Shown here: piece by piece, positions 4,266 through 15,323 of the stretch
How the letters are laid out: every line of letters begins with the position of its first letter
Position numbering within the stretch: the stretch's first letter is position 1
DNA from: Clavibacter phaseoli
Lineage (GTDB): Bacteria; Actinomycetota; Actinomycetes; Actinomycetales; Microbacteriaceae
Length of the DNA stretch: 64,000 nucleotides
Reading direction: 5' to 3'
Assembly (NCBI RefSeq): GCF_021922925.1
Contig: NZ_CP040786.1
Span: 2,542,001-2,606,000, forward strand
Position numbers and translations under genes: made by a program
The notes under the pieces: model-generated
Told to the model about the DNA's origin: nothing
Databases searched by the model: none
The model's input: the letters and a program-made list of their open reading frames with translations, nothing else

Positions 4266-5720
4266 TCAGTCGCGCGCGTCGACCGCCGCCCGCGCGTACG
4301 CCCGCCGCCGCGCCTTGCCGGCGTCGTCCCGCACGGGCGTCCGGGTGAGGCGCACGGCGGCCGGGCGGCGCTCCGCGTCGAGCCGGGCGCGGGCCCAGGA
4401 GAGCAGCTCGGCGGCGTCGACCTCCGCGTCCGCGACGTCGACCACGGCCTCGACGCGCTGGCCGAGGTCGTCGTCCGGCACGCCGAACGCGACCGCGCCG
4501 CGCACAGCCGGGTGCTGCTCGAGCACGCGCTCGACCTCGGCGGGGTGCACGTTGACGCCGCCCCGCAGGATCACGTCGTCGGCGCGGTCGAGCACGAACA
4601 CGTACCCCTCGGCGTCCACGCGCCCGAGGTCGCCGAGCGTGTCCCAGCCGTCGGGGGTGCGGGCGGATCCGGCGCCGAGGTACGCGTAGGCCGGCCCGCC
4701 GTCGCGGCGCATCCAGATCCGGCCGACCTCGCCCGCGGGCAGCTCGCGACCCTCGGCCGAGCGGATCGACACGGCCGTGCCCGCCCCGGGCCGCCCGACG
4801 CTGCCCGGGTGCCGTAGCCACTCGTCGCCGCGGATGGTGAGGATCCCGTTCGACTCGCTCCCCGCGTAGACCTCGACGAGCCGCTCGGGCCCGATCCAGT
4901 CCATGGTCGCGCGCTTCACGCCGGGCGGGCACGGGGCGCCCAGGTGCAGCACGGTGCGGAGGCTCGACAGGTCGGCCGCGCGCCGCTCGTCGTCGGGGAG
5001 GCGGAGCAGGCGATGCAGCATCGTCGGCACGAGCAGCGTCCACGTGATCCGATGCTCGGCGATCGCGGCCAGCACCCGTCGCTCGTCGAAGCGCGGCAGG
5101 AGCACGAGCGCGTGGCCCGTCATGAGGCCGCGGAACGCGTAGGTGAACGCGGCCGAGTGGGTGAGCGGCGCCGTGACCAGCTGCACCTGGTCGAGCGGGA
5201 GGTACGGCGCCACGGGGAGCGTCGGATCCAGCAGCGCGGGAGCGGTGGTCGCGACGACCTTGGGGCGGCCGGTGGATCCCGACGAGGTCGGCGCCTTCCA
5301 GCTGCGCGCCCAGGCGTCGGGCAGCGGTCCGTCGTCGAGCCCGGCCGGCGGCACCCAGCCGGCGGGCACGGACGGGACGCCATTCCGGGTGGACTCGGCG
5401 CCGACCACGAGCGCGGGCCGGGCGAGGTCCTCGACGTGCGCGCGCTCCTCGGCGGAGAGCCCGGTCGACATCGGCTGCGGCGTCGCGCCGGCCTTCCACA
5501 CGGCCGCGCACACCACGACCATCTCGCGGGTGTTCGGCAGCGCGATCGCGACCCGGTCGTCCTGGCCCACGCCGAGGTCCGCGTAGGCACGCGCCAGCCG
5601 GTTCGACGCCCGGTCGAGCTCGCGCGCGGTGAGCGCCCCGGCGTCGTCGCGCACGACGACGCGGTCGGGATCCGCGTCAGCGAGACCCGAGATGATCCGC
5701 GAGATCGACTGCCTGGCCAC
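4266..5720 (-). CDS. Adenylate-forming (AMP-dependent) synthetase/ligase
   Basis: A 484-aa member of the ANL superfamily (acyl-CoA synthetases, NRPS adenylation domains). The motifs appear in order: P-loop SSGSTGRPKVV (about 145-155), A5-like VYAGSESNGI, A7-like DTLGDLG, hinge DVILRGGVNVHPAEVERV, and the C-terminal catalytic Lys in RDDAGKARRR. It should activate a carboxylate as an acyl-AMP and probably transfer it to CoA or an amine; the substrate is not readable. It is the last gene of the leftward nitrilase operon and its start lies 44 bases inside the glycosyltransferase gene, which indicates translational coupling. It is not among the seven canonical Nit1C genes as I know them, so it looks like an extension of the pathway. 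Confidence 0.82.
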   Translation of the reverse strand: MARQSISRIISGLADADPDRVVVRDDAGALTARELDRASNRLARAYADLGVGQDDRVAIALPNTREMVVVCAAVWKAGATPQPMSTGLSAEERAHVEDLARPALVVGAESTRNGVPSVPAGWVPPAGLDDGPLPDAWARSWKAPTSSGSTGRPKVVATTAPALLDPTLPVAPYLPLDQVQLVTAPLTHSAAFTYAFRGLMTGHALVLLPRFDERRVLAAIAEHRITWTLLVPTMLHRLLRLPDDERRAADLSSLRTVLHLGAPCPPGVKRATMDWIGPERLVEVYAGSESNGILTIRGDEWLRHPGSVGRPGAGTAVSIRSAEGRELPAGEVGRIWMRRDGGPAYAYLGAGSARTPDGWDTLGDLGRVDAEGYVFVLDRADDVILRGGVNVHPAEVERVLEQHPAVRGAVAFGVPDDDLGQRVEAVVDVADAEVDAAELLSWARARLDAERRPAAVRLTRTPVRDDAGKARRRAYARAAVDARD

Positions 5721-6843
5721 CGTCGCCCTCCGTCCCCGTCGCCCGGTAGAACGCCTCGTGCTGGCGGGCCACGTCGTCCCAGTCGTGGGACGCGGCGAGC
5801 GCGCGGCCCCCCGCCGGGTCGGGCGCGCGCCCGTCGAGCGCCGCGGCGAGGGCGTCGGCCGCGCCCGCCGGATCCGTCGCGAACAGCACGGACGACCCGA
5901 ACACCTCGCGCAGCACGGGCAGGTCGCGCGCGACCACGGGCACCCCCGCGGCGAGCGCCTCCATCGCGGCGAGGCCGAAGCCCTCCTTGGTCGAGAGGAA
6001 CGCGAGCGCGCCGGCCGCGGCGACGAGCGGCGGGACGTCGGGGTCGTCGACGACCCCGAGGATCACCGGCCGGATCCCCAGCTCGGCGGCGCGCGCGTCG
6101 AACGCCTCGCGGTACGCCCGGTAGTCGAACAGCGTCTCGCCGCCGCCGAACACGAGCCGGAGGCCGGGCCGCGACGCACGGAGCAGCGCGAACGCCTCGA
6201 GCAGGTCGACGCTGCCCTTCCGCGGCTCGATGCCGCCGAGCGCGAGCACGTAGTCGCCATCCACGCCGTGCTCGCGCAGCGCGGCGCGCATCCGGTCGCG
6301 GTCCTCGGCGCCCGCGGGACCCGCCGCCGCCCGGAAGCGCGCGCCGTCGACGCCGTTCGGGATCACCGTGGGCACCAGGCCCCAGCCCGCCTCGACCTCC
6401 GCGGCGACGGCGGCGGACACGCACAGCCGCGCGATCGGCTCCCGCACGGCGGCGTCGTGGCAGCGCACGAGCTCCGGCGTCGTGAACTCGTCGAGGTGGT
6501 GGATCGTGCGGATGCAGGGCCCGGCCGCGTTCGCCGAGATGCAGTCCTGCGCGTGCACGACGTCGTAGGCCTCGGCCTGGCGCGCGGCGGCGAAGGCCGC
6601 GCGCATGGTCGCGATCGAGCGGACGATGCGCTCGCCCACCGTCTCGTCGTCGCGCGCGGCGAACGGCACCACGCGGATCCGCACGGCCGGGTCGACCTCG
6701 CGGAAGAATGCGCGGTCGCCGCCGCGCCCCAGCGTCCAGACGACGACGTCGTGCCCGCGCCGGGCGAGCGCCTCCGCGAGGGCGAGCGTGTGCACCACCC
6801 CGCCGCGCGGCTTGGTGGAGTAGGTCAGCAGGGCGATCCGCAC
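5677..6843 (-). CDS. MSMEG_0565-type glycosyltransferase (GT4, GT-B fold)
   Basis: A 388-aa GT-B glycosyltransferase. The N-terminal domain starts MRIALLTYSTKPRGGVVHTL, and the donor-binding C-terminal half holds ALGGIEPRKGSVDLLEAF and the GT4 E-x7-E region FLSTKEGFGLAAMEALAAG. This matches the MSMEG_0565 family that travels with Nit1C-type clusters in actinobacteria. It probably transfers a sugar from a nucleotide-sugar donor to the product of the cluster. It lies 55 bp downstream of the degenerate nitrilase gene and overlaps the ligase by 44 bp. There is no signal peptide or membrane segment. Confidence 0.88.
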   Translation of the reverse strand: MRIALLTYSTKPRGGVVHTLALAEALARRGHDVVVWTLGRGGDRAFFREVDPAVRIRVVPFAARDDETVGERIVRSIATMRAAFAAARQAEAYDVVHAQDCISANAAGPCIRTIHHLDEFTTPELVRCHDAAVREPIARLCVSAAVAAEVEAGWGLVPTVIPNGVDGARFRAAAGPAGAEDRDRMRAALREHGVDGDYVLALGGIEPRKGSVDLLEAFALLRASRPGLRLVFGGGETLFDYRAYREAFDARAAELGIRPVILGVVDDPDVPPLVAAAGALAFLSTKEGFGLAAMEALAAGVPVVARDLPVLREVFGSSVLFATDPAGAADALAAALDGRAPDPAGGRALAASHDWDDVARQHEAFYRATGTEGDGGQAVDLADHLGSR

Positions 6844-6898
6844 GGGGCGCTCCTCGGGTGGGTCGGCGGGCGGCGGGTCGGGGTCGGGGATCGGCGGG

Positions 6899-7759
6899 TC
6901 AGCCGGCGGCGGGCGCGGGCGTCGGCGCGTAGGCCGCCGGCACCCGGTCGCGCAGGTGGTGCATCGTGCGCCGGGCGCGGGCGATGTCCGACGACGCGTC
7001 CGCGGTCGTGACGGCCAGGCCGCCCTTCGCCCACGTCTTCGCGACGATCTCGCCGGCGGGATCCACGACCTTCGCCTGCCCCAGGAACCGCAGGCCCCCG
7101 AGCACGCCGGTCTGGTTCGACGACACGAGGTAGAGCTGGTTCTCGGCCGCGCGCGAGCAGTCGTAGAGGTCGAAGAGGTGCGCCTGCCGGTCGTTGCGGA
7201 GCCGGTCGGAGCGGTCGGTGACGCTGGCCGGCCACGCGCTCAGGCACGCGAGGATCTCGGCACCGTCGAGCGCGAGCGTGCGCGCCGACTCCGGGAAGGT
7301 CTTGTCGAAGTCGATCATCATGCCGACGCGCCCCACGGGGGTGTCGAACGCCGCGAACGCGGATCCGGCCCTGTACGCCTCCGACTCCCCGAGCGGCAGG
7401 TGCACCTTGCGGTGCGTGCCGAGGACCCGACCGCCCTGCACGCAGACGGCGCTGTTGTACCGGATCTCCTCGCCGCCCTCGAGCGCGCGCTCCGCGACCC
7501 CGAAGCACACCGTCATGTCGCCGGCCATCTCGGTCACGGCCCGCACCTCCGGGCCGTCCAGCTCCACGGCGGGCGGGAGCGCATCCGGCCCCGGGTGCTC
7601 CATGTCGAGCAGGTAGCCGCCGATGGTCGCGTCCGGGAGCACCAGCAGATCGACGCCGCGCTCGCGGGCCTGGTCGATCATGCCGGGGAGCTTGGCGAGC
7701 GTCCGCTCGACGTCGCGCCCGAAGTGCGCCGCGACCGCCCCCATCGTGATCTCGGCCAT
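6899..7759 (-). CDS. Nitrilase-superfamily paralog with lost catalytic residues
   Basis: A 286-aa carbon-nitrogen hydrolase fold closely similar to the cluster's nitrilase at 9386 (compare GRVGMMIDFDKTFPESART with GRVGMQICYDKAFPEAARS). The catalytic triad Glu-Lys-Cys is broken. The Glu position is Asp43 (VLPDATIGGY), Lys118 is kept (THRKVHLP), and the nucleophilic Cys is Asp150 (MMIDFDK). I read both codons directly as GAC. It is therefore unlikely to hydrolyse nitriles or amides by the normal thioimidate/thioester route and may be a scaffold or regulatory partner of NitC. It lies between nitH (9-bp gap) and the glycosyltransferase. The frame is intact and conservation is high, which argues against a decaying pseudogene. 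Confidence 0.88.
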   Translation of the reverse strand: MAEITMGAVAAHFGRDVERTLAKLPGMIDQARERGVDLLVLPDATIGGYLLDMEHPGPDALPPAVELDGPEVRAVTEMAGDMTVCFGVAERALEGGEEIRYNSAVCVQGGRVLGTHRKVHLPLGESEAYRAGSAFAAFDTPVGRVGMMIDFDKTFPESARTLALDGAEILACLSAWPASVTDRSDRLRNDRQAHLFDLYDCSRAAENQLYLVSSNQTGVLGGLRFLGQAKVVDPAGEIVAKTWAKGGLAVTTADASSDIARARRTMHHLRDRVPAAYAPTPAPAAG

Positions 7760-7765
7760 GGCGAC

Positions 7766-7771
7766 AGGCTA
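7766..7771 (-). promoter_or_regulatory. Possible internal -10 (TAGCCT) before the degenerate nitrilase gene
   Basis: TAGCCT plus 6 bases precedes the ATG at 7759, and its first three bases are the TAG stop of nitH. It may give extra transcription of the last three genes, or be chance. Confidence 0.25.
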
Positions 7772-9061
7772 GCCGGACCAGGCCGCCCCCACCCCGGCGG
7801 GCGTCCGGTCCGCCGCGCCCTCCTCGATCCGGTCCGCGAGGTGCTCGGCGTCGCGCGCGATCGCGGCGAAGCGCCCCGATCCCCACGTGTGCAGCCACGG
7901 CAGGCCGAGGAAGTGCAGGCCGGCCACGGCGCTGGATCCGCGCTGGTGCATCGGGTGCCCGGATCCGTCGAACGCGCCCACCTGCACCCACGAGTAGTCG
8001 GACCGGTAGCCGGCCGCCCACACGATGCTCGTGATCCCGGCCTCGGCCAGGTCGAGCCCGGTCTCCTCGCGCTCCGGCCGCCAGACGGGCACGTACCGCG
8101 GCTCGGTCGGCGCGTCGATGCCGGAGCGCGCGATGTGCCGGTCGATGTCGTCCTTGATCGACTCCATCACCGAGTCGGCGTGGTCGAGCGACGCCTCGAC
8201 GGTGGGCGTGAAGGCGAGCCGCGTGCCCTCCGCGCCGGCGAGGCGCCCGTGCAGGCGCATGCCGTCCCGGGCGAAGGCGCGCAGGTCGATGTCGCGGCCG
8301 CCGCCGCGCCCGGTCATGTAGTGGTTGGTCGACTCGCGCTTGGTGAGGCCGCCGACGTGCGCGGTGACGGGGATGTCGTACACGCCCATGTCCTCGAGCC
8401 AGGCGATGCAGTCGCGGCCGCGGTACCGGCGGGCGCAGCGGGGCGCGGATCCGAGGGCGAGGTGCACCTGGCGGCCCGCGAGGTGGAGGTCCTCGGCGAT
8501 CTGCGCGCCGGACTGGCCGGATCCCACCACGAGCACGGCCCCCTCGGGGAGCGCCTCGGGCGAGCGGTAGTCGGCGGAGTGCACCTGCCGGATGCCGTCG
8601 GGGATCCGCGCGGCCGCCGCCGGGAGCACGGGCCGGTGGTAGCCGCCCGTCGCGATGACGACCTGCTCCGCGACGATCGTGCCCTGGTCGGTGACGACCT
8701 CGAAGCCGCCCGCGGCCGCCTCGCGCAGCCGGGTGACCAGCACGCCCTCGACCACGGGCGCGTCGAAGGAGTCGGCGTAGCCGCGGATCCACGCGAGCAC
8801 CTCGTCGCGCGTCATGAAGCCGTCGGGGTCGTCCCCCGCGTACGGGTACCCGGGGAGCCGGCACTGCCAGTTCGGCGTGACGAGCGTGAAGGCGTCCCAG
8901 CGGCGGTCCGCCCAGTCGTGGCCGACGCGGTCGCGCTCGAGCACCACGTGGTCGACGCCGCGGCGCGTGAGGTGCCAGCTGATCGAGAGCCCGGCCTGGC
9001 CGCCGCCCACCACGGCGACGGGCACGCGCGCGCCGTCGACGACGCGGGTCGCGCGGCTCAC
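7769..9061 (-). CDS. nitH: NitH: MSMEG_0569-type flavin-dependent oxidoreductase
   Basis: A 430-aa two-dinucleotide-binding flavoprotein. The FAD Rossmann motif is VAVVGGGQAGLS (about 14-25), the NADPH-binding motif VLVVGSGQSGAQI (about 165-177), and VVIATGGYHRP is the FMO-like ATG motif. It matches the MSMEG_0569 family, the NitH oxidoreductase of Nit1C clusters, and presumably oxygenates or oxidises a cluster intermediate with NADPH and O2. GTG 9061 is chosen because it overlaps the stop of nitG as GTGA and the Rossmann fold begins just after it; the frame remains open upstream but reads like out-of-frame sequence. No signal peptide is present. Confidence 0.92.
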   Translation of the reverse strand: MSRATRVVDGARVPVAVVGGGQAGLSISWHLTRRGVDHVVLERDRVGHDWADRRWDAFTLVTPNWQCRLPGYPYAGDDPDGFMTRDEVLAWIRGYADSFDAPVVEGVLVTRLREAAAGGFEVVTDQGTIVAEQVVIATGGYHRPVLPAAAARIPDGIRQVHSADYRSPEALPEGAVLVVGSGQSGAQIAEDLHLAGRQVHLALGSAPRCARRYRGRDCIAWLEDMGVYDIPVTAHVGGLTKRESTNHYMTGRGGGRDIDLRAFARDGMRLHGRLAGAEGTRLAFTPTVEASLDHADSVMESIKDDIDRHIARSGIDAPTEPRYVPVWRPEREETGLDLAEAGITSIVWAAGYRSDYSWVQVGAFDGSGHPMHQRGSSAVAGLHFLGLPWLHTWGSGRFAAIARDAEHLADRIEEGAADRTPAGVGAAWSG

Positions 9062-9393
9062 GCGCCGGCCCCCGTCGCGGTCGCGCTCGCGGTCGCGGTC
9101 GCATCGGCCGGCAGCGGCGGCTCCATGCGCAGCACCGCCACGGTCCCGCCGTCGAAGCCCGCGGCCGCCCGGAGGATCTCCTCCTCCTGCTGCATCGCGG
9201 ACGTGCACGCGAATCCGTACCTCGCCCGCACCCGCTCGCTCGCGACGCGCAGCGCCGCGGTGGACCGGCGCACGAAGTCGTCGAGCGGGTACTCGGATCC
9301 GGCGGCGAGGTGGTCGTGCATCACGAGGCTCGGCGAGTAGCAGTCGGCCTCGGATCCGTCGGGCCAGCGCACGCGGAAGGTCATCTCAGGCAC
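9058..9393 (-). CDS. nitG: NitG: MSMEG_0570-type nitrogen starvation response protein
   Basis: A small protein of 111 aa (108 from the second Met) of the MSMEG_0570 family, named for induction under nitrogen starvation in mycobacteria; its biochemical function is unknown. The conserved core is MTFRVRWPDGSEADCYSPS with ARYGFACTSAMQQEEEI further on. The C-terminus is an Ala/Thr-rich tail (PADATATASATATGAGA) encoded by a hexanucleotide tandem repeat. It overlaps nitC by 8 bases and nitH by 4, so the three are translationally coupled. ATG 9393 and ATG 9384 are both possible starts. Confidence 0.9.
   Translation of the reverse strand: MPEMTFRVRWPDGSEADCYSPSLVMHDHLAAGSEYPLDDFVRRSTAALRVASERVRARYGFACTSAMQQEEEILRAAAGFDGGTVAVLRMEPPLPADATATASATATGAGA
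9074..9102. repeat. Hexanucleotide tandem repeat in the 3' end of nitG
   Basis: Nearly five copies of a 6-base unit (GTCGCG, with one CTCGCG) encode the Ala-Thr tail. Such repeats change length by slippage without shifting the frame. Confidence 0.75.
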
Positions 9394-10303
9394 GGGCCAG
9401 CGCCTCTTCCGCGGGGAGGCCGGCGGCGGGGAGGCCGGCGGCGGGGACGCCCTCGCCGGTCCGGTACGCGTCGGGCCGGCGGTCGCGCAGGTGGAACATG
9501 CCGCCGCGCATCGCCCGGAACGTGCCCTCCACGTCGATCTCGGCGATGGCCAGCCCCGCGTCGAGCAGCGTCGTCGCGAGCACGTTGCCGCCGGGATCCA
9601 CGACCTTGGCGTTGCCGACGTAGCGCAGCGAGCCGAACGACCCGGCCTGGTTCGAGGCGATCCAGAACACCTGGTTGTCGAGCGCCCGCGCGGAGTCGAA
9701 GAGGTTGAACCGGTAGGTCCACCGATCCTGCTGCAGGTCCTCGGCGGTCGCCGTGCGCGCGACCGGCCAGGCCGACATGCTCACGATGATCTCGGCGCCG
9801 TCCATCGCCAGCGAGCGGGCCGCCTCGGGGAACGCCTTGTCGTAGCAGATCTGCATCCCGACGCGGCCGACCGGGGTGCCGAACGCCGCAAAGACGTCGC
9901 CCGCGGAGTACGACATGGCCTCGCCGAGCGGCTGGTGCACCTTGCGGTACGAGCCGTGGATGCGGGATCCGTCGAGGCAGACGGCCGCGTTGTACCGCGT
10001 CTCGCCGTCGTCGTCGAGCTCGCAGAAGCCGATGCACACGACCATGTCGCCCGCCATCTCCTGCACGCGCCGGATCTCCGGGCCGTCGAGGCGGATCGCC
10101 GGAGGGAGCGAACGACTCGTGGTCTTGAGGGTGTCGCCGTGGTTGCCGAGCGAGGAGAGGTAGCCGCCGATCGCGGCCTCCGGGAACGCGATGAGCTCCA
10201 CGCCGCTCTCCCGGGCCTCGGCGATCAGGCTCGCGATGAGCGCGTAGTTCTGCTCGAGATCCCGGGTGAAGTTCGCCGAGACGGCGGCGACGGTCGTCGA
10301 CAT
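9386..10303 (-). CDS. nitC: NitC: Nit6803-type nitrilase
   Basis: A 305-aa aliphatic nitrilase of the Nit6803/Nit1C type with an intact triad: Glu42 (FPEAAIGGY), Lys121 (SYRKVHQPLG) and Cys153 (MQICYDKAFPE). It should hydrolyse a nitrile to the carboxylic acid and ammonia; in cyanide-assimilating pseudomonads the homologous cluster is needed for growth on cyanide. It is cytosolic and probably oligomeric. ATG 10303 is preceded by a strong Shine-Dalgarno (AGGAGG). It is the first gene of the leftward operon nitC-nitG-nitH-paralog-glycosyltransferase-ligase. The extreme C-terminus carries a repeated PAAGL unit encoded by a 15-base duplication. Confidence 0.95.
   Translation of the reverse strand: MSTTVAAVSANFTRDLEQNYALIASLIAEARESGVELIAFPEAAIGGYLSSLGNHGDTLKTTSRSLPPAIRLDGPEIRRVQEMAGDMVVCIGFCELDDDGETRYNAAVCLDGSRIHGSYRKVHQPLGEAMSYSAGDVFAAFGTPVGRVGMQICYDKAFPEAARSLAMDGAEIIVSMSAWPVARTATAEDLQQDRWTYRFNLFDSARALDNQVFWIASNQAGSFGSLRYVGNAKVVDPGGNVLATTLLDAGLAIAEIDVEGTFRAMRGGMFHLRDRRPDAYRTGEGVPAAGLPAAGLPAEEALARA
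9411..9447. repeat. 15-base tandem repeat in the 3' end of nitC
   Basis: About 2.5 copies of a 15-base unit (9411-9425, 9426-9440, partial to 9447) add in-frame AAGLP units to the C-terminus of the nitrilase. Confidence 0.8.
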
Positions 10304-10332
10304 CGTGCCTCCTGAGGGGGTCGATCCGGTCG

Positions 10333-10348
10333 GCGCAGGATCCTGCGC
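10333..10348. promoter_or_regulatory. 16-bp perfect palindrome in the nitC leader
   Basis: GCGCAGGATCCTGCGC lies 30 bases upstream of the nitC start. It could be a repressor operator or an 8-bp RNA stem. Its core is GGATCC, which is over-represented throughout the window, so chance is not excluded. Confidence 0.4.
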
Positions 10349-10357
10349 GTGGGGCCC

Positions 10358-10363
10358 AGTCAA
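10358..10363 (-). promoter_or_regulatory. Candidate -35 (TTGACT) of the nitC operon
   Basis: TTGACT on the minus strand, 55 bases before the nitC ATG. No strong -10 is visible, as expected for an activator-dependent promoter. The GTTTC grid lies just upstream. Confidence 0.3.
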
Positions 10364-10374
10364 GGCCACGGTGT

Positions 10375-10412
10375 GTTTCCGCTTGGTTTCGCTCGGAACA
10401 AGATCTCGTTTC
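10375..10412 (-). promoter_or_regulatory. GlnR-box-like repeat array
   Basis: On the minus strand GAAAC occurs at 10412-10408, 10390-10386 and 10379-10375, all on one 11-base grid (22 and 11 apart). GAAAC-N6-GAAAC fits the actinobacterial GlnR arrangement of 5-base sites spaced by 6 bases. The array sits between the divergent nit operons, whose families are named for nitrogen-starvation response, so GlnR control is a reasonable inference. Confidence 0.5.
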
Positions 10413-10580
10413 GCGCGCGCCATCCGTAGGACCCGAATCCACAGACGACCGGGCATTCCCGCTCCGACCGCCGACATGGGGTAGCAGATCGAATTCTCGC
10501 TGTAATCCGCCCGCAACAGCACGACCGAAGACTCGAGCCAGACCCCGACCTCCGCTCCATCGACCGCCAAGGAGAGCACC

Positions 10581-11111
10581 ATGAGCGACGCCGACATCGA
10601 CCAGCAGATCCTCGACAACATCGAGAGGTCGCGCGAGGAGATCGCGCACCCCTCGCTGCCGAAGGGCAGCAGCATCTACGGGTCGACGAAGATCTTCCCC
10701 GACTACACCGCCACCAAGGACGACTACTACTTCCAGCTCGTGCACGGCATCGCGCACGAGTCGTCGGTGAGCTTCGTCGCCGTGCTGCAGGCCACCCGGG
10801 CGCTGCGCAAGGGATTCACGAGCGTCCTGTACTTCTACGGACCCGGATCCCTGAACGCCATCGCCAACCGCGGCTTCCCCACGACGGGCGCCGACGGGTT
10901 CCCCGGCGAGAACAACATCAACAACGCGCTCGAGACGTTCATCGCCGAGGGCGGCACCGTCTTCTGCTGCCGCTTCGGCCTCGCGCTGCACGGCGCGCGC
11001 GAGGAGGACCTCATCGCGGGCGTGATCCCGTGCCACCCGCTCGACGTGCAGGACGCGGTGATCCACTACGCCCGCAAGGGAGCCATCATCAACAGCACGT
11101 ACATGGTCTGA
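10581..11111 (+). CDS. nitB: NitB: MSMEG_0572-type nitrogen starvation response protein
   Basis: A 176-aa protein matching the MSMEG_0572 family (NitB of Nit1C clusters), which is highly conserved but has no known reaction. Notable stretches are YGSTKIFPDYTATKDDYY, LYFYGPGSLNAIANRGFPTT and the Cys pair VFCCRFGLALHG. It has no signal peptide or membrane segment. ATG 10581 follows AAGGAGAG. It heads the rightward operon; nitD starts 11 bases after its stop. A weak -10 (TGTAAT, 10501-10506) would give a leader of about 70 bases. Confidence 0.92.
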   Translation: MSDADIDQQILDNIERSREEIAHPSLPKGSSIYGSTKIFPDYTATKDDYYFQLVHGIAHESSVSFVAVLQATRALRKGFTSVLYFYGPGSLNAIANRGFPTTGADGFPGENNINNALETFIAEGGTVFCCRFGLALHGAREEDLIAGVIPCHPLDVQDAVIHYARKGAIINSTYMV

Positions 11112-11122
11112 CCGGTGCGCCC

Positions 11123-12244
11123 ATGACCATCACGAGAGGGACCGCGACGCCGAGCCGCGCCCGGCAGGCAGACGCGGATGCGGACGCCGCCGCGCTCACC
11201 ACGCGCGTCGACATCGCCATCCGCGGGATCCGCGTCGCCGCGCCCGTTCACCGTGAGGGTGGCGCCGGGCCGAGCGACGACGGGCACGTGATGTTCCGCG
11301 GGCTGCAGTCCGCGGTGCCGGCGAACCCGGACAGCCCCTACCTCGTCGACGACGGCAAGCTGCTGCTCGACGGCGAGGACACGGGCTACGAGGTCGACGC
11401 GGTCGACCGGCCCCGGTTCTACGACCTCGAGACCGCGGACGGCGTCTCCTACGAGAAGATCGCGCGCCTGCACGGCGCCAAGGTGCTGGCCACCACGGTG
11501 GTGCAGACCTGCGTGCGGTACGACGAGTCGGAGCGCTGCCGGTTCTGCTCCATCGAGGAGAGCCTCGCCTCCGGCAGCACCATCGCGGTCAAGACGCCGG
11601 CCATGCTCGCGGAGGTCGCGGAGGCGGCCTGGCGGCTCGACGGCGTCGAGCAGATGGTCATGACCACGGGCACGAGCAACGGTCGCGACCGCGGGGCCAC
11701 CCACCTCGCGCGCTGCGTCCGGGCGATCAAGGAGGCCGTGCCCGACCTCATGATCCAGGTGCAGTGCGAGCCGCCCGCGCAGCTGTCGACCATCACCGAC
11801 CTGTACGAGGCCGGCGCGCGCTCCATCGGGATCCACGTGGAGTCGATGGACGACGACGTGCGCCGCCGCTGGATGCCGGGCAAGTCCCGCGTCTCGATGG
11901 ACGAGTACCGCGCCGCGTGGCGCGAGGCGGTGCGCGTCTTCGGCCGCAACCAGGTCTCCACCTACCTGCTGGTGGGGCTCGGCGAGGATCCGGACGAGAT
12001 GGTCGCCGGGGCCCAGGAGCTCATCGAGATGGGCGTCTACCCCTTCATCGTGCCGTTCCGGCCGCTGCGCGGGACGCTCGCGACGGACGTCGACCACGTC
12101 CCCGCGCCCGAGGGATCCGTGCTCCGCGACGTGACGTTCCGCGTCTCGCGCGCGCTCCAGGCCGCCGGGATGCGCGGCGCCGACCAGAAGGCGGGCTGCG
12201 CGGCCTGCGGCGCCTGCTCCGCCCTGCAGACCGCCGGAGGCTGA
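11123..12244 (+). CDS. nitD: NitD: MSMEG_0568-type radical SAM protein
   Basis: A 373-aa radical SAM enzyme. The [4Fe-4S] cluster motif is not the usual C-x3-C-x2-C but C-x8-C-x2-C (Cys130, Cys139, Cys142; TCVRYDESERCRFC), a spacing I associate with this family. VMTTGTSNGRDRG follows in the SAM-binding region, and IGIHVESMDDDVRRRW and STYLLVGLGEDPDEM are later barrel elements. The C-terminus has a second Cys triad, C359-x2-C362-x2-C365, that could hold an auxiliary cluster. It presumably performs a radical rearrangement or C-C/C-N chemistry on the cluster substrate. ATG 11123 lies 11 bases after nitB. Confidence 0.93.
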   Translation: MTITRGTATPSRARQADADADAAALTTRVDIAIRGIRVAAPVHREGGAGPSDDGHVMFRGLQSAVPANPDSPYLVDDGKLLLDGEDTGYEVDAVDRPRFYDLETADGVSYEKIARLHGAKVLATTVVQTCVRYDESERCRFCSIEESLASGSTIAVKTPAMLAEVAEAAWRLDGVEQMVMTTGTSNGRDRGATHLARCVRAIKEAVPDLMIQVQCEPPAQLSTITDLYEAGARSIGIHVESMDDDVRRRWMPGKSRVSMDEYRAAWREAVRVFGRNQVSTYLLVGLGEDPDEMVAGAQELIEMGVYPFIVPFRPLRGTLATDVDHVPAPEGSVLRDVTFRVSRALQAAGMRGADQKAGCAACGACSALQTAGG

Positions 12245-12247
12245 TCC

Positions 12248-13666
12248 GTGCTCCTCGACGTCCCCGCCCTCATGGGCCCGCCGGTCGTCCGGTCGGCGCC
12301 GGCGTTCCTCGTGTCCGAGGCCGAGGGGCGCGACCTCGACGCGTACCGGCGCCTCCGGCACGACGCGTTCGTCGAGGAGCAGGGGATCTTCGCGGGCACC
12401 GACCTCGACGCGCTCGACGAGGACCCGCGCACGGTCGTGCTGGTGGCGCGCACCGCGGGCGAGGTCGTCGGCGGCGTGCGGCTCGCGCCCGTCGGCGCGC
12501 GGGACATCGGCTGGTGGACGGGGTCGCGGCTGGTCGTGGCGCCGGGCGCGCGCGAGATCCGCGGCGTCGGCTCGGCGCTCGTGCGGGCCGCCGCGGTGCA
12601 CGCGGAGCAGGCCGGCGTGCTGCGCTTCGACGCGACCGTGCAGGCGCGCAGCGCGGTGCTCTTCCGGCGGCTGGGCTGGATCCCCACCGGCACCGCGGTC
12701 GTCGGCGGCGTCGAGCACGTGACCATGCGCTGGCCCATCGGCCGGATCCAGCGGCTCGTCGACCAGACCAAGACGCACCTCGCCGCGGTGCTCGAGCCCG
12801 GTGCGCCCGGCGACCCCGACGCCCTCGGCGCCGCGCTCGGCGGGCCCGGCTGGGTGGGCGACGACGGCGCCCCCGTGCCCGGCACCGACGTGATCGCCGC
12901 CTGCGACGCGATCCTCCCCTCCATGGTGGAGCGGGATCCGGAGTGGGCCGGCTGGTGCGGCGTGCTCGTCAACGTCAACGACCTCAGCGCGATGGGCGCG
13001 ACCCCCGTGGGCCTCCTCGACTCCGTGGCGGGACGCGACGCCGCGTCCGTCCGCCGCGTGATGGCCGGCGTCCGCCGCGGCGCCGCGGCCTGGGGCGTCC
13101 CGATCCTCGGCGGGCACACGCAGCTCGGCGTGCCCGCCGCCCTCAGCGTCACCGCCCTCGGCAGGACCGCCGATCCGGTCCCCGGGGGCGGTGGCTCCGC
13201 CGGCCAGGCCCTGAGCCTCACGGTCGACGTGTCCGGATCCTGGCGGTCCGGCCACCGCGGAGCGCAGTGGAACTCGACCGAGGGGCGCTCCCCCGCGGAG
13301 CTCCGCGACCTCGCCGCGACCGTCGCGCGCGCCCGCCCGGCCGCCGCGAAGGACGTGAGCATGGCCGGGATCGTCGGCACCGCCGGCATGCTCGCGGAGG
13401 CCAGCGGCACGGGCGCGGTGGTCGACGTCGCGGACGTGCCCGTACCCGGATCCGCCGACGTCGCGATGGGCGACTGGCTCACCTGCTTCCCCGGCTTCGG
13501 GATGCTGACCGCGGACGCCCCGGGCGCCTCGCGCATGGCGTCGCCGCACGCGACGACCGCGCGCATCGGCTGGCTGACCGCCGAGCCCGGGGTGGGCCTC
13601 CGCTGGCCGGACGGCGTCGTGACGCCCGCGGTCGCCGCGGGCGTCACGGGCCTCGGCGCGGCCTGA
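12248..13666 (+). CDS. NitE-NitF fusion: GNAT domain plus AIRS/ThiL-like domain
   Basis: A 472-aa two-domain protein. Residues about 20-160 form a GNAT-like domain (YRRLRHDAFVEEQGIF, VVAPGAREIRGVGSALV, FRRLGWIPTG), matching the MSMEG_0567 N-terminal family. Residues about 170-465 form an AIR-synthase (PurM/ThiL/SelD-like) ATP-binding domain (VNVNDLSAMGATPVG, PILGGHTQLG), matching the sll0787 family. In Pseudomonas Nit1C clusters these are two separate proteins, NitE and NitF; here they are one chain. The likely role is ATP-dependent activation plus acyl transfer on a shared intermediate. GTG 12248 starts 3 bases after nitD ends; ATG 12272 is an alternative. Confidence 0.9.
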   Translation: MLLDVPALMGPPVVRSAPAFLVSEAEGRDLDAYRRLRHDAFVEEQGIFAGTDLDALDEDPRTVVLVARTAGEVVGGVRLAPVGARDIGWWTGSRLVVAPGAREIRGVGSALVRAAAVHAEQAGVLRFDATVQARSAVLFRRLGWIPTGTAVVGGVEHVTMRWPIGRIQRLVDQTKTHLAAVLEPGAPGDPDALGAALGGPGWVGDDGAPVPGTDVIAACDAILPSMVERDPEWAGWCGVLVNVNDLSAMGATPVGLLDSVAGRDAASVRRVMAGVRRGAAAWGVPILGGHTQLGVPAALSVTALGRTADPVPGGGGSAGQALSLTVDVSGSWRSGHRGAQWNSTEGRSPAELRDLAATVARARPAAAKDVSMAGIVGTAGMLAEASGTGAVVDVADVPVPGSADVAMGDWLTCFPGFGMLTADAPGASRMASPHATTARIGWLTAEPGVGLRWPDGVVTPAVAAGVTGLGAA

Positions 13667-13683
13667 ACCGGGGGCGGCGGGCG

Positions 13684-14364
13684 TCAGTACTCGATGCGCC
13701 CGTGCCGGCTGTGGAACTCGCCGGTCGGCCCATCGGGCCCGACGAGCGCCATCGCGACGGTCGCGTCGGTGCCCTCGGTCACGGTCTGGTGCCCGCTGTT
13801 GCCGTTGAAGTCGGTCGCCGTGTATCCGGGGTCGGTGGCGTTGACCCGGAAGCCCGGCAGGTTCTTCGCGTACTGGACGGTGGCGGTGACCACGGCGGCC
13901 TTCGACGCCGCGTACGGGATCGCGAGCACGTGGCTCTCGTCCGTGCCCTCGCCGCGGAGGGCGCGCGGCCAGCCGACGCCCGAGGAGACGTTCACGATGA
14001 CGGGCGCGGCGGAGGCGCGCAGCAGCGGCAGCGCCGCCTGCGTCACCCGGACGATGCCGACGACGTTGGTCTGCAGCACCGCGGACATCGCCTCCGGGCT
14101 GAGGTCGTCGACGCCGAACGACGTCCCGAGGATGCCGGCGTTGTTGACGAGCACGTCGAGCTCGGGCAGCTCGGACATCGCGCGGTCGACGCTCGCCTGG
14201 TCGTCGACGTCGAGCTGCACGGGGTGGGCGCCGAGGGCGCGGGCGGCGTCGCCGTCGGCGGTGTCGCGCATGCCGGCGTAGACGGTGTGGCCGGCCTCGA
14301 TGAGGCGGCGGGCGGTCTCGAGGCCGAGGCTGCGGTTGGATCCGGTGATCAGTGTGGTGGTCAT
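13684..14364 (-). CDS. Short-chain dehydrogenase/reductase (SDR)
   Basis: A 226-aa classical SDR. The NAD(P)-binding motif is TGSNRSLG (residues 7-14), NNAG and NVSSGVGW follow, and the catalytic pair YxxxK is YAASK. The C-terminus (DPGYTATDFNGNSG) is the usual substrate-loop region. It should oxidise an alcohol or reduce a carbonyl with NAD(P)(H). It is divergent from the XRE regulator at 14466 and convergent with the nit operon, with 17 bp between the stops. A CAGGCT hexamer 6 bases before ATG 14364 supports the start. Confidence 0.92.
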   Translation of the reverse strand: MTTTLITGSNRSLGLETARRLIEAGHTVYAGMRDTADGDAARALGAHPVQLDVDDQASVDRAMSELPELDVLVNNAGILGTSFGVDDLSPEAMSAVLQTNVVGIVRVTQAALPLLRASAAPVIVNVSSGVGWPRALRGEGTDESHVLAIPYAASKAAVVTATVQYAKNLPGFRVNATDPGYTATDFNGNSGHQTVTEGTDATVAMALVGPDGPTGEFHSRHGRIEY

Positions 14365-14370
14365 GCATCG

Positions 14371-14376
14371 AGCCTG
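14371..14376 (-). promoter_or_regulatory. -10 element (CAGGCT) of the SDR gene
   Basis: CAGGCT followed by 6 bases and ATG 14364; same spacing as the other leaderless-type starts. Confidence 0.35.
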
Positions 14377-14465
14377 CGCCCCGCCCGCCGCGTCGCCCAG
14401 GCACCGGTCGACGGGAGGACCGGCGGTACCAGGCTGATGCGCCCGCCAGCGCGGAGGATGGGGGC

Positions 14466-15323
14466 ATGACCGAATTCGCGAGCGTCCTCCGCTCCTGGCG
14501 CGAGCGCGTGCAGCCGGCCGACGTGGGCCTGCCCGCGGGATCCCACCGCCGCACCGCGGGCCTCCGCCGCGAGGAGCTCGCCGCGCTGGCCGGAGTGAGC
14601 GTCGACTACGTCGTGCGGCTCGAGCAGGGCCGGTCGGTGAACCCGTCGCCGCAGATGCTCGGCGCGCTCGCCCGCGCGCTCCGGCTCACCGAGGACGAGC
14701 GCGACCACCTGCACCGGGTCGCGGGCGTCGCCCCGCCCGGCCGCGGCGAGGTGCCGCGGCACATCACCCCGGGCGTGCACCGGATCGTCGACCGGCTCGG
14801 CGACGTCCCGATCGCGGTGTTCACGGCGACGCACGACATGCTGCTCTGGAACCCGCTGTGGGCGGCGCTCAACGGGGATCCGTCGACGCGCACCGGCTGG
14901 GACCGCAACCTCGTCTGGACCTACTTCACGCAGGGGCACACGGGCACCGACTTCGACCCCGTGCACGAGGAGGAGTTCGCGCGCGACCTCACGGCCGACC
15001 TCCGCGCCGCCGTCGGCCGCTACCCCGACGACCACGCGCTCGCCCGCCTCGTGGCCCGCCTTCGTGCCGAGGTCCCGGAGTTCGCGCGCCGCTGGAGCGA
15101 GGCGCGCGTCGCCGAGCACCGGTCGAGCCGCAAGACCGTCACGCGCACCGCGGTCGGCCCCATCACGATCGACTGCGACACCCTTTCGGTGCCGGGCAGT
15201 GACCTCCGCATCGTCGTCTACACGGCCGAGCCCGGCAGCACCGACGAGGCGCGGCTGGACCTCCTCCGCGTCACCGGCCTGCAGACGCTGACGACGGCGC
15301 CCGTGGAGGTGGCGGGGGCCTGA
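14466..15323 (+). CDS. XRE family regulator with MmyB-like ligand domain
   Basis: A 285-aa protein with an N-terminal helix-turn-helix (about 25-80; GLRREELAALAGVSVDYVVR then LEQGRSVNPS) and a C-terminal MmyB-like PAS-type domain (VFTATHDMLLWNPLWAAL). This architecture is common in actinobacteria, where such regulators sit beside and control a divergent SDR, as here (SDR at 13684-14364). The C-terminal domain probably binds a small lipid-like ligand. ATG 14466 follows a GGAGG-rich Shine-Dalgarno. Confidence 0.9.
   Translation: MTEFASVLRSWRERVQPADVGLPAGSHRRTAGLRREELAALAGVSVDYVVRLEQGRSVNPSPQMLGALARALRLTEDERDHLHRVAGVAPPGRGEVPRHITPGVHRIVDRLGDVPIAVFTATHDMLLWNPLWAALNGDPSTRTGWDRNLVWTYFTQGHTGTDFDPVHEEEFARDLTADLRAAVGRYPDDHALARLVARLRAEVPEFARRWSEARVAEHRSSRKTVTRTAVGPITIDCDTLSVPGSDLRIVVYTAEPGSTDEARLDLLRVTGLQTLTTAPVEVAGA

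Follow-up and report, generated by a model that had tools for sequence, protein, structure and literature searches.

A Nit1C-type gene cluster of Clavibacter phaseoli in which a pair of nitrilase-fold paralogues, one of them probably non-hydrolytic, appears to replace the Nit6803 nitrilase

We analysed a 64,000-nucleotide stretch of the Clavibacter phaseoli genome (contig NZ_CP040786.1, positions 2,542,001 to 2,606,000; hereafter the window), which comes from a probably plant-associated bacterium with a genome of 3.2 Mb in two contigs. Ten genes span window positions 4266-13666 in two divergent operons with 277 bp between them, and the coordinates and the two-operon layout given by an initial annotation, made from the letters alone, were borne out. 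Families were assigned with NCBIfam models and their curated cut-offs, and gene starts were refined from the sequence (for N1, an ATG at 10303 preceded by AGGAGG; for the radical SAM gene, position 11123). The cluster, followed along the window, reads:

4266-5720, minus strand: LIG, AMP-binding (adenylate-forming) ligase of 484 amino acids (PF00501, 201.7 bits; PF13193, 35.5 bits)
5677-6843, minus strand: GT, glycosyltransferase of the MSMEG_0565 family (TIGR04047, 430.3 bits, cut-off 259.85)
6899-7759, minus strand: N2, nitrilase-fold protein with D43-K118-E125-D150 instead of E-K-E-C (PF00795, 125.6 bits)
7769-9061, minus strand: FMO, flavin oxidoreductase of the MSMEG_0569 family, NitH type (TIGR04046, 647.7 bits, cut-off 498.35, scored on the longer open reading frame 7769-9208)
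9058-9393, minus strand: S570, small protein of the MSMEG_0570 family, NitG type (TIGR04042, 126.2 bits, cut-off 79.85)
9386-10303, minus strand: N1, nitrilase-fold hydrolase with an intact Glu-Lys-Glu-Cys set (PF00795, 155.1 bits)
10374-10401, minus strand: operator-like element TTGTTCC-n4-GAAACC-n5-GAAACA, whose final 17 nt (10374-10390) match the GlnR consensus
10581-11111, plus strand: B572, protein of the MSMEG_0572/Sll0783 family, NitB type (TIGR04044, 230.1 bits, cut-off 109.85)
11123-12244, plus strand: radical SAM protein of the MSMEG_0568 family, NitD type (TIGR04043, 510.1 bits, cut-off 303.7, scored on the longer open reading frame 11030-12244)
12248-13666, plus strand: GNAT-AIRS fusion, NitE-NitF type (TIGR04045, 86.1 bits, cut-off 68.45; TIGR04050, 448.1 bits, cut-off 312.2)

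Six families named after MSMEG genes exceed their cut-offs (0572, 0568, 0567 for the GNAT-AIRS fusion, 0570, 0569 and 0565), which agrees with the placement in the initial annotation, and the glycosyltransferase, the adenylate-forming ligase and the second nitrilase-fold protein that it added to the cluster are real neighbours (TIGR04047, PF00501, PF00795). The NitB, NitD, NitE, NitF, NitG and NitH families of the Nit1C cluster are found together (TIGR04044, TIGR04043, TIGR04045 plus TIGR04050, TIGR04042, TIGR04046). Its further assignment of a NitC gene failed: against the Nit6803 family model TIGR04048, with a cut-off of 502.6 bits, N1 scored 43.6 and N2 21.4 bits. Within the fusion protein, the sll0787 AIRS model TIGR04049 remained below its own cut-off (173.6 vs 321.3 bits), and the nearest PDB sequences of the AIRS part are HypE and ThiL, while a PDB sequence search with B572 and S570 gave no match below E 0.4. 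Radical SAM proteins usually carry the motif CX3CX2C; the protein encoded here has CX8CX2C plus a C-terminal CX2CX2C, the latter also present in Pantoea as read off the alignment.

The Nit1C cluster has been described as restricted to one group of subfamily 1 nitrilases (Podar 2005, PMC1199592), and the window cluster holds no Nit6803 or subfamily 1 nitrilase. The initial annotation had itself staked its reading on membership of the Nit6803 family, and not only the two nitrilase-fold proteins but every protein of the 49 different actinobacterial genomes matching the marker TIGR04044 fell below the cut-off in the profile search. Six of these 49 genomes scored 161-248 bits, all outside the cluster stretches read, and in four of the six the match lies on other contigs of fragmented assemblies. 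Among the control genomes one of 14 exceeded the cut-off; six controls gave a match, Synechococcus elongatus being one of these, and the search output does not name the genome above the cut-off. The best NCBIfam model of N1 is an amidase (TIGR03381, 101.9 vs 410.25 bits) and that of N2 a nitrilase, far under its cut-off (98.4 vs 500 bits). The best PDB sequence relatives of the nitrilase-fold proteins include 1j31, 3ivz and 5h8i, of which 3ivz is named a nitrilase, beside N-carbamoyl amidohydrolases. Compared with the Nit1C cluster of Pantoea, FMO is 54% and the radical SAM protein 46% identical, but N1 and N2 share only 27% and 28% identity, over partial length, with the annotated Nit6803 nitrilase, a disparity that argues for an exchange of the nitrilase rather than plain divergence. 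Among plasmid records, 515 have a NitB match at E 1e-5 but only four, all from Rhodococcus, an N2 match at the stricter 1e-40; of four annotated records examined, that of Rhodococcus carries two 'carbon-nitrogen hydrolase family' genes, and those of Pantoea, Acinetobacter and Rhizobium carry one 'Nit6803' gene each beside NitB. In the actinobacterial version, a duplicated carbon-nitrogen (CN) hydrolase pair would thus have taken the place of the Nit6803 nitrilase.

N1 and N2 are paralogues with 52% identity. We pooled the loci described below, removed duplicates and kept those holding both proteins, which left 92 distinct loci. N1 retains the Glu-Lys-Cys triad, with E-K-E-C in all 92, and has a match in Clavibacter michiganensis at 95% identity. 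The corresponding triad of N2 is Asp-Lys-Asp, with Asp at both the Glu and the Cys place; the Cys place is without Cys in 92/92 loci (Asp in 89, Ser in 3), the Lys is kept in 92/92, and the second Glu and the Asp at the first Glu place in 91/92 each. The 120 closest homologues among the N2 matches listed (3500 were found) have Asp at the Cys place throughout; 119 also have it at the Glu place, where the remaining one has Asn, and the 120 closest listed N1 homologues all show E-K-E-C. A second set of 80 named loci, the best 80 of at least 583, was chosen with N2 search patterns that omit the Cys and Glu places (one includes the Lys); here N2 has Asp at the Cys place in 80/80 and at the Glu place in 79/80, and N1-type rows are intact in 75/75, one of them a distant extra copy. 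Among the departures are Tyr for Asp43 in one Aeromicrobium (L171) and Ser at the nucleophile place (TSYDK) in a single genus (L085, L092, L093). In the 92 loci mean conservation is 0.911 in the pocket windows of N2 compared with 0.764 elsewhere in the protein, and 0.873 compared with 0.778 in N1, and the two proteins evolve at equal pace (mean pairwise identity 0.687 for N2 and 0.681 for N1, correlation 0.83). Since N2 lacks the Cys in every locus and its pocket is about as conserved as that of N1, it is probably a long-kept, non-hydrolytic protein. We found no report of this Cys loss in the open-licence literature, which is no proof that it is unreported.

In the phylogenetic tree, among whose members ten actinobacterial families are named, N2 forms one clade (support 99/96) and N1, without L063, another (96/90), both inside a group of 66 rows (100/98). 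With L063 included the support of the N1 clade drops to 45/0; L063 and L111, which belong to a single family, have E-K-C enzymes that fall beside the N1/N2 group with no resolved position. The predicted model of N2 has a mean predicted local distance difference test (pLDDT) of 83.6 and a predicted template modelling score (pTM) of 0.86. Eight sites are fixed differently in N1 and N2, and helix 191-207 of the model carries three of them (N2 Q192, L195 and A205).

The marker TIGR04044 was found in 19/396 genomes of the phylum and 31/398 of the family, including three of the ten genomes listed from the same genus. All nine core genes are present in 29 of the 49 loci chosen by TIGR04044 and in 65 of the 80 chosen by N2, the two sets overlapping, and the core, including N1 and N2, stays together through eight gene orders. 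Twenty marker loci lack the full set: thirteen have a distant marker only (38-46% identity; L058-L062, L064-L066, L068-L071 and L101), and four others (L067, L073, L083, L102) are missing some of the genes where a contig or stretch ends. The distant-marker loci carry a radical SAM gene in 11/13 and a glycosyltransferase gene in 8/13; in L058 a carbamate-kinase gene (NF009007, 314 vs 266 bits) and one resembling CoA-disulfide reductase lie close by. N2 is present in 31 of the 36 near-marker loci. The remaining five are L063, with a single E-K-C enzyme, L067, L073 and L102, which end at a border, and L083; a loss of N2 in L083 was rejected, as a different contig from that genome has an N2 behind a LIG end. 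LIG is present in 28/29 and 43/65 complete clusters of the two overlapping sets and was not found in the four loci with the mycobacterial-type order; it is a lineage-limited extension. An AMP-binding gene that ends the Pantoea Nit1C cluster was not accepted as its orthologue (best match 30% over 100 residues).

In the near relatives L098, L100 (= L119) and L120 the flanking DNA is also common with the window, and N2 is 98-100% identical in three near relatives. By contrast, Clavibacter michiganensis CASJ009 (L123, a locus of 20.9 kb) shares with the window only positions 4291-13670, at 80% identity, and its flanks of 4.2 and 7.4 kb have nothing longer than 250 bp in common with it. The ten genes therefore act as a single transferable unit, and the unshared flanks suggest that the cluster was acquired separately within the same genus. 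A short-chain dehydrogenase gene (13684-14364, minus strand) adjoins the cluster, followed by an open reading frame (14352-15323, plus strand) with an N-terminus that by eye resembles a helix-turn-helix; both lie outside the unit common with L123.

The two operons share a promoter region in which the element 10374-10390 is a predicted GlnR site, an exact fit to the consensus Gn2AC-n6-GnAACA of Mycobacterium smegmatis (PMC3662644). GlnR itself is encoded in the genome (144.2 bits, cut-off 27), and in M. smegmatis it binds 5' of MSMEG_0572, with a large induction (PMC4222082, PMC3662644, PMC6039565). With two mismatches allowed, the longer pattern TTGTTCC-n4-GAAACC-n5-GAAACA matches the 3.2 Mb genome just once; of 115 loci from overlapping sets, 42 have a slightly looser pattern 5' of N1 or B572, with three further matches in 2.18 Mb; as the looser pattern was derived from the same loci, the 42/115 are no independent test. 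A four-element GlnR scan, with 20 shuffles for each region, gave values of 0.05 or less in 45/106 upstream regions, but in only 1/13 distant-marker loci and 1/8 from Nocardioides.

Among known systems, the gpr cluster of M. smegmatis (MSMEG_0565-0572) is like the window in having eight genes of the same families, two CN-hydrolases (0566 and 0571) included, and all eight families are found in the window cluster. Its gene order is seen in L055 and three Gordonia loci, whereas the window has two divergent operons and the AMP-ligase. By the gene order of L055, N1 corresponds to MSMEG_0571 and N2 to MSMEG_0566 (annotated 'aliphatic amidase'); from that order we infer MSMEG_0566 to be of the Cys-less kind. 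The gpr cluster has a GlnR-bound promoter and is strongly induced under nitrogen starvation (PMC6039565, PMC3662644, PMC4222082), and its deletion lowers the NADPH/NADP ratio in nitrogen-starved cells (PMC6039565). With the Nit1C clusters (nitBCDEFGH) of pseudomonads and cyanobacteria the window shares the NitB, NitD, NitE, NitF, NitG and NitH families, but it differs in having the N1-N2 pair instead of Nit6803, NitE fused to NitF, added GT and LIG genes, and no regulator gene within the unit (none was searched for elsewhere). The Synechocystis sll0783 (NitB) mutant fails to raise its NADPH/NADP ratio (PMC3901256); the main text of PMC6039565 names neither Synechocystis nor sll0783. These phenotypes bear out the view of the initial annotation that the cluster does more than simple detoxification, and since a like effect on starvation and redox state appears despite different hydrolases, the shared enzymes, and not NitC, would carry the general function. 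From the N-carbamoylputrescine amidase and archaeal-type nitrilase branches, with which the fold and, for N1, the catalytic residues are common, N1 and N2 are set apart by scores far under the cut-offs and N2 also by its missing nucleophile. The open-licence literature yielded nothing useful on a Clavibacter copy of the cluster or on a role in natural-product synthesis.

For MSMEG_0571, a selenoprotein formed by read-through of its TGA has been proposed (PMC6039565). In the window the N1 stop and the S570 start overlap by 8 nt (GTGCCTGA, 9386-9393), and the S570 stop and the FMO start by GTGA (9058-9061). The N1 stop is TGA in 85/85 colinear loci, as is the junction [AG]TGCCTGA, in which the S570 start contains this TGA; in 73/85 the start of FMO precedes the S570 stop by 1 nt. 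These two overlaps put FMO in the frame of N1, so that both phase and TGA follow from them. Beyond the N1 TGA the frame stays open as far as the FMO stop in 62/85 loci, the window included, and is closed in 23/85; counted over the 82 in-phase loci, the 62 open frames exceed the 58% that stay open when S570 is codon-shuffled, related loci not being independent. SelA was not found in the window's genome, and with 23 closed frames and the TGA lying within the S570 start we rejected selenocysteine read-through from N1 into FMO, M. smegmatis not being among the loci. The read-through proposed for the N1 homologue appears better explained by overlapping genes.

Taken together, we consider it an even call that the cluster is a gpr-type version of Nit1C, GlnR-controlled, in which a hydrolase, N1, and a non-hydrolytic partner, N2, serve a small-metabolite pathway. 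Nitrogen shortage would lead GlnR to switch the cluster on, and N1, with its Glu-Lys-Cys triad, would cleave a C-N bond. N2, with Asp at the nucleophile place, would be no hydrolase; it is most likely the partner of N1, and we infer that the two pair across the usual nitrilase dimer surface, members of the superfamily being described as pairing across the A-surface (PMC4700190), and its kept pocket may still bind a ligand. Together with the radical SAM protein, flavoprotein, GNAT, AIRS and glycosyltransferase, the pair may make or remodel a small acylated or glycosylated metabolite, and the outcome would be a more reduced NADPH pool during nitrogen starvation. The present analysis shows the gene set and residues, the paralogy and conservation, the presence of a GlnR gene and the match to its consensus; the GlnR induction and the NADPH phenotype are those published for relatives. 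Several observations weigh against this reading. N1 and N2 were not found in the stretches read around the 13 distant markers (five of them shorter than 15 kb), so the hydrolase step would not be universal, and the E-K-C enzyme of neither group in L063 and L111 implies that the pair is not required in every actinobacterium. Fully invariant pocket sites are slightly fewer in N2 (17/42) than in N1 (20/42). The base of the tree is weakened by long branches and the midpoint root; the N2 model falls below pLDDT 50 at residues 122-125 and 179-184, close to the pocket; and helix 191-207 is one that we take to be the pairing surface. Finally, such conservation of the pocket could also reflect catalysis of another kind.

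That N2 is instead an active enzyme with new chemistry, its D-K-E-D pocket binding a metal or using Asp as base or nucleophile on a pathway intermediate, is possible but less probable. The changed residues are both acidic and nearly fixed (Asp in 91/92 and 89/92), Asp holds the Cys place in all 120 closest listed homologues, and mean pocket conservation is above that of the rest of N2 and of the N1 pocket. The changes that N2 tolerates (Asp150 to Ser in three loci of one genus, Asp43 to Tyr in the Aeromicrobium L171, Asn in one of 120) argue for binding or structure rather than new catalysis, and no report was found in the open-licence literature of a nitrilase-fold enzyme working without Cys. 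It is doubtful that N2 would found a new nitrilase-fold enzyme class, with a Cys-free Asp-Lys-Glu-Asp pocket, catalysing one step in a widespread nitrogen-starvation pathway.

HypE forms a nitrile from a carboxamide. The proximity of the AIRS part to HypE thus fits the proposal of the initial annotation that a nitrile-containing metabolite is made or modified here, N1 being the nitrilase; so do the relationship of N1 to 3ivz and the nitrilase model of N2, low as its score is, and these leave room for it. We nevertheless think it rather unlikely: the best model of N1 is an amidase, likewise far below its cut-off, the AIRS part lacks the C-terminal Cys motif of HypE, and with N1 and N2 both under the Nit6803 cut-off the nitrile-cleaving enzyme is the very one exchanged, which weakens the proposal for the actinobacterial version. 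Assimilation of cyanide or nitriles as in cyanotrophic pseudomonads is very improbable, for although the gene set is common with nit1C, reported there to be essential for cyanide assimilation and linked to NitC (PMC11049912), the enzyme held responsible is missing here, and the published phenotypes, in Synechocystis as in M. smegmatis, relate to nitrogen starvation and NADPH. That N2 is a decaying duplicate without function is hardly credible: its catalytic Cys is lost, but it persists in 31 of 36 near-marker loci, the five others being L063, the three border cases and L083, under a constraint equal to that on N1 and with near-identity in three close relatives.

We know of no product of this cluster, which has been on record since 2005 and occurs in several phyla. 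If the nitrilase is exchangeable where partner proteins remain about 50% identical, and the reported phenotypes are alike in Synechocystis and M. smegmatis, cyanide hydrolysis through NitC is probably not what the cluster is generally for. If MSMEG_0566 is a true N2, as the gene order says, the present finding would correct its reading as an amidase in the gpr cluster, and it would also correct the selenoprotein proposal for that cluster. The same odd N1/N2 pair recurs across many actinobacteria, and a fixed, Cys-free twin, with N1 and N2 separable, would offer a clean handle on the pathway.

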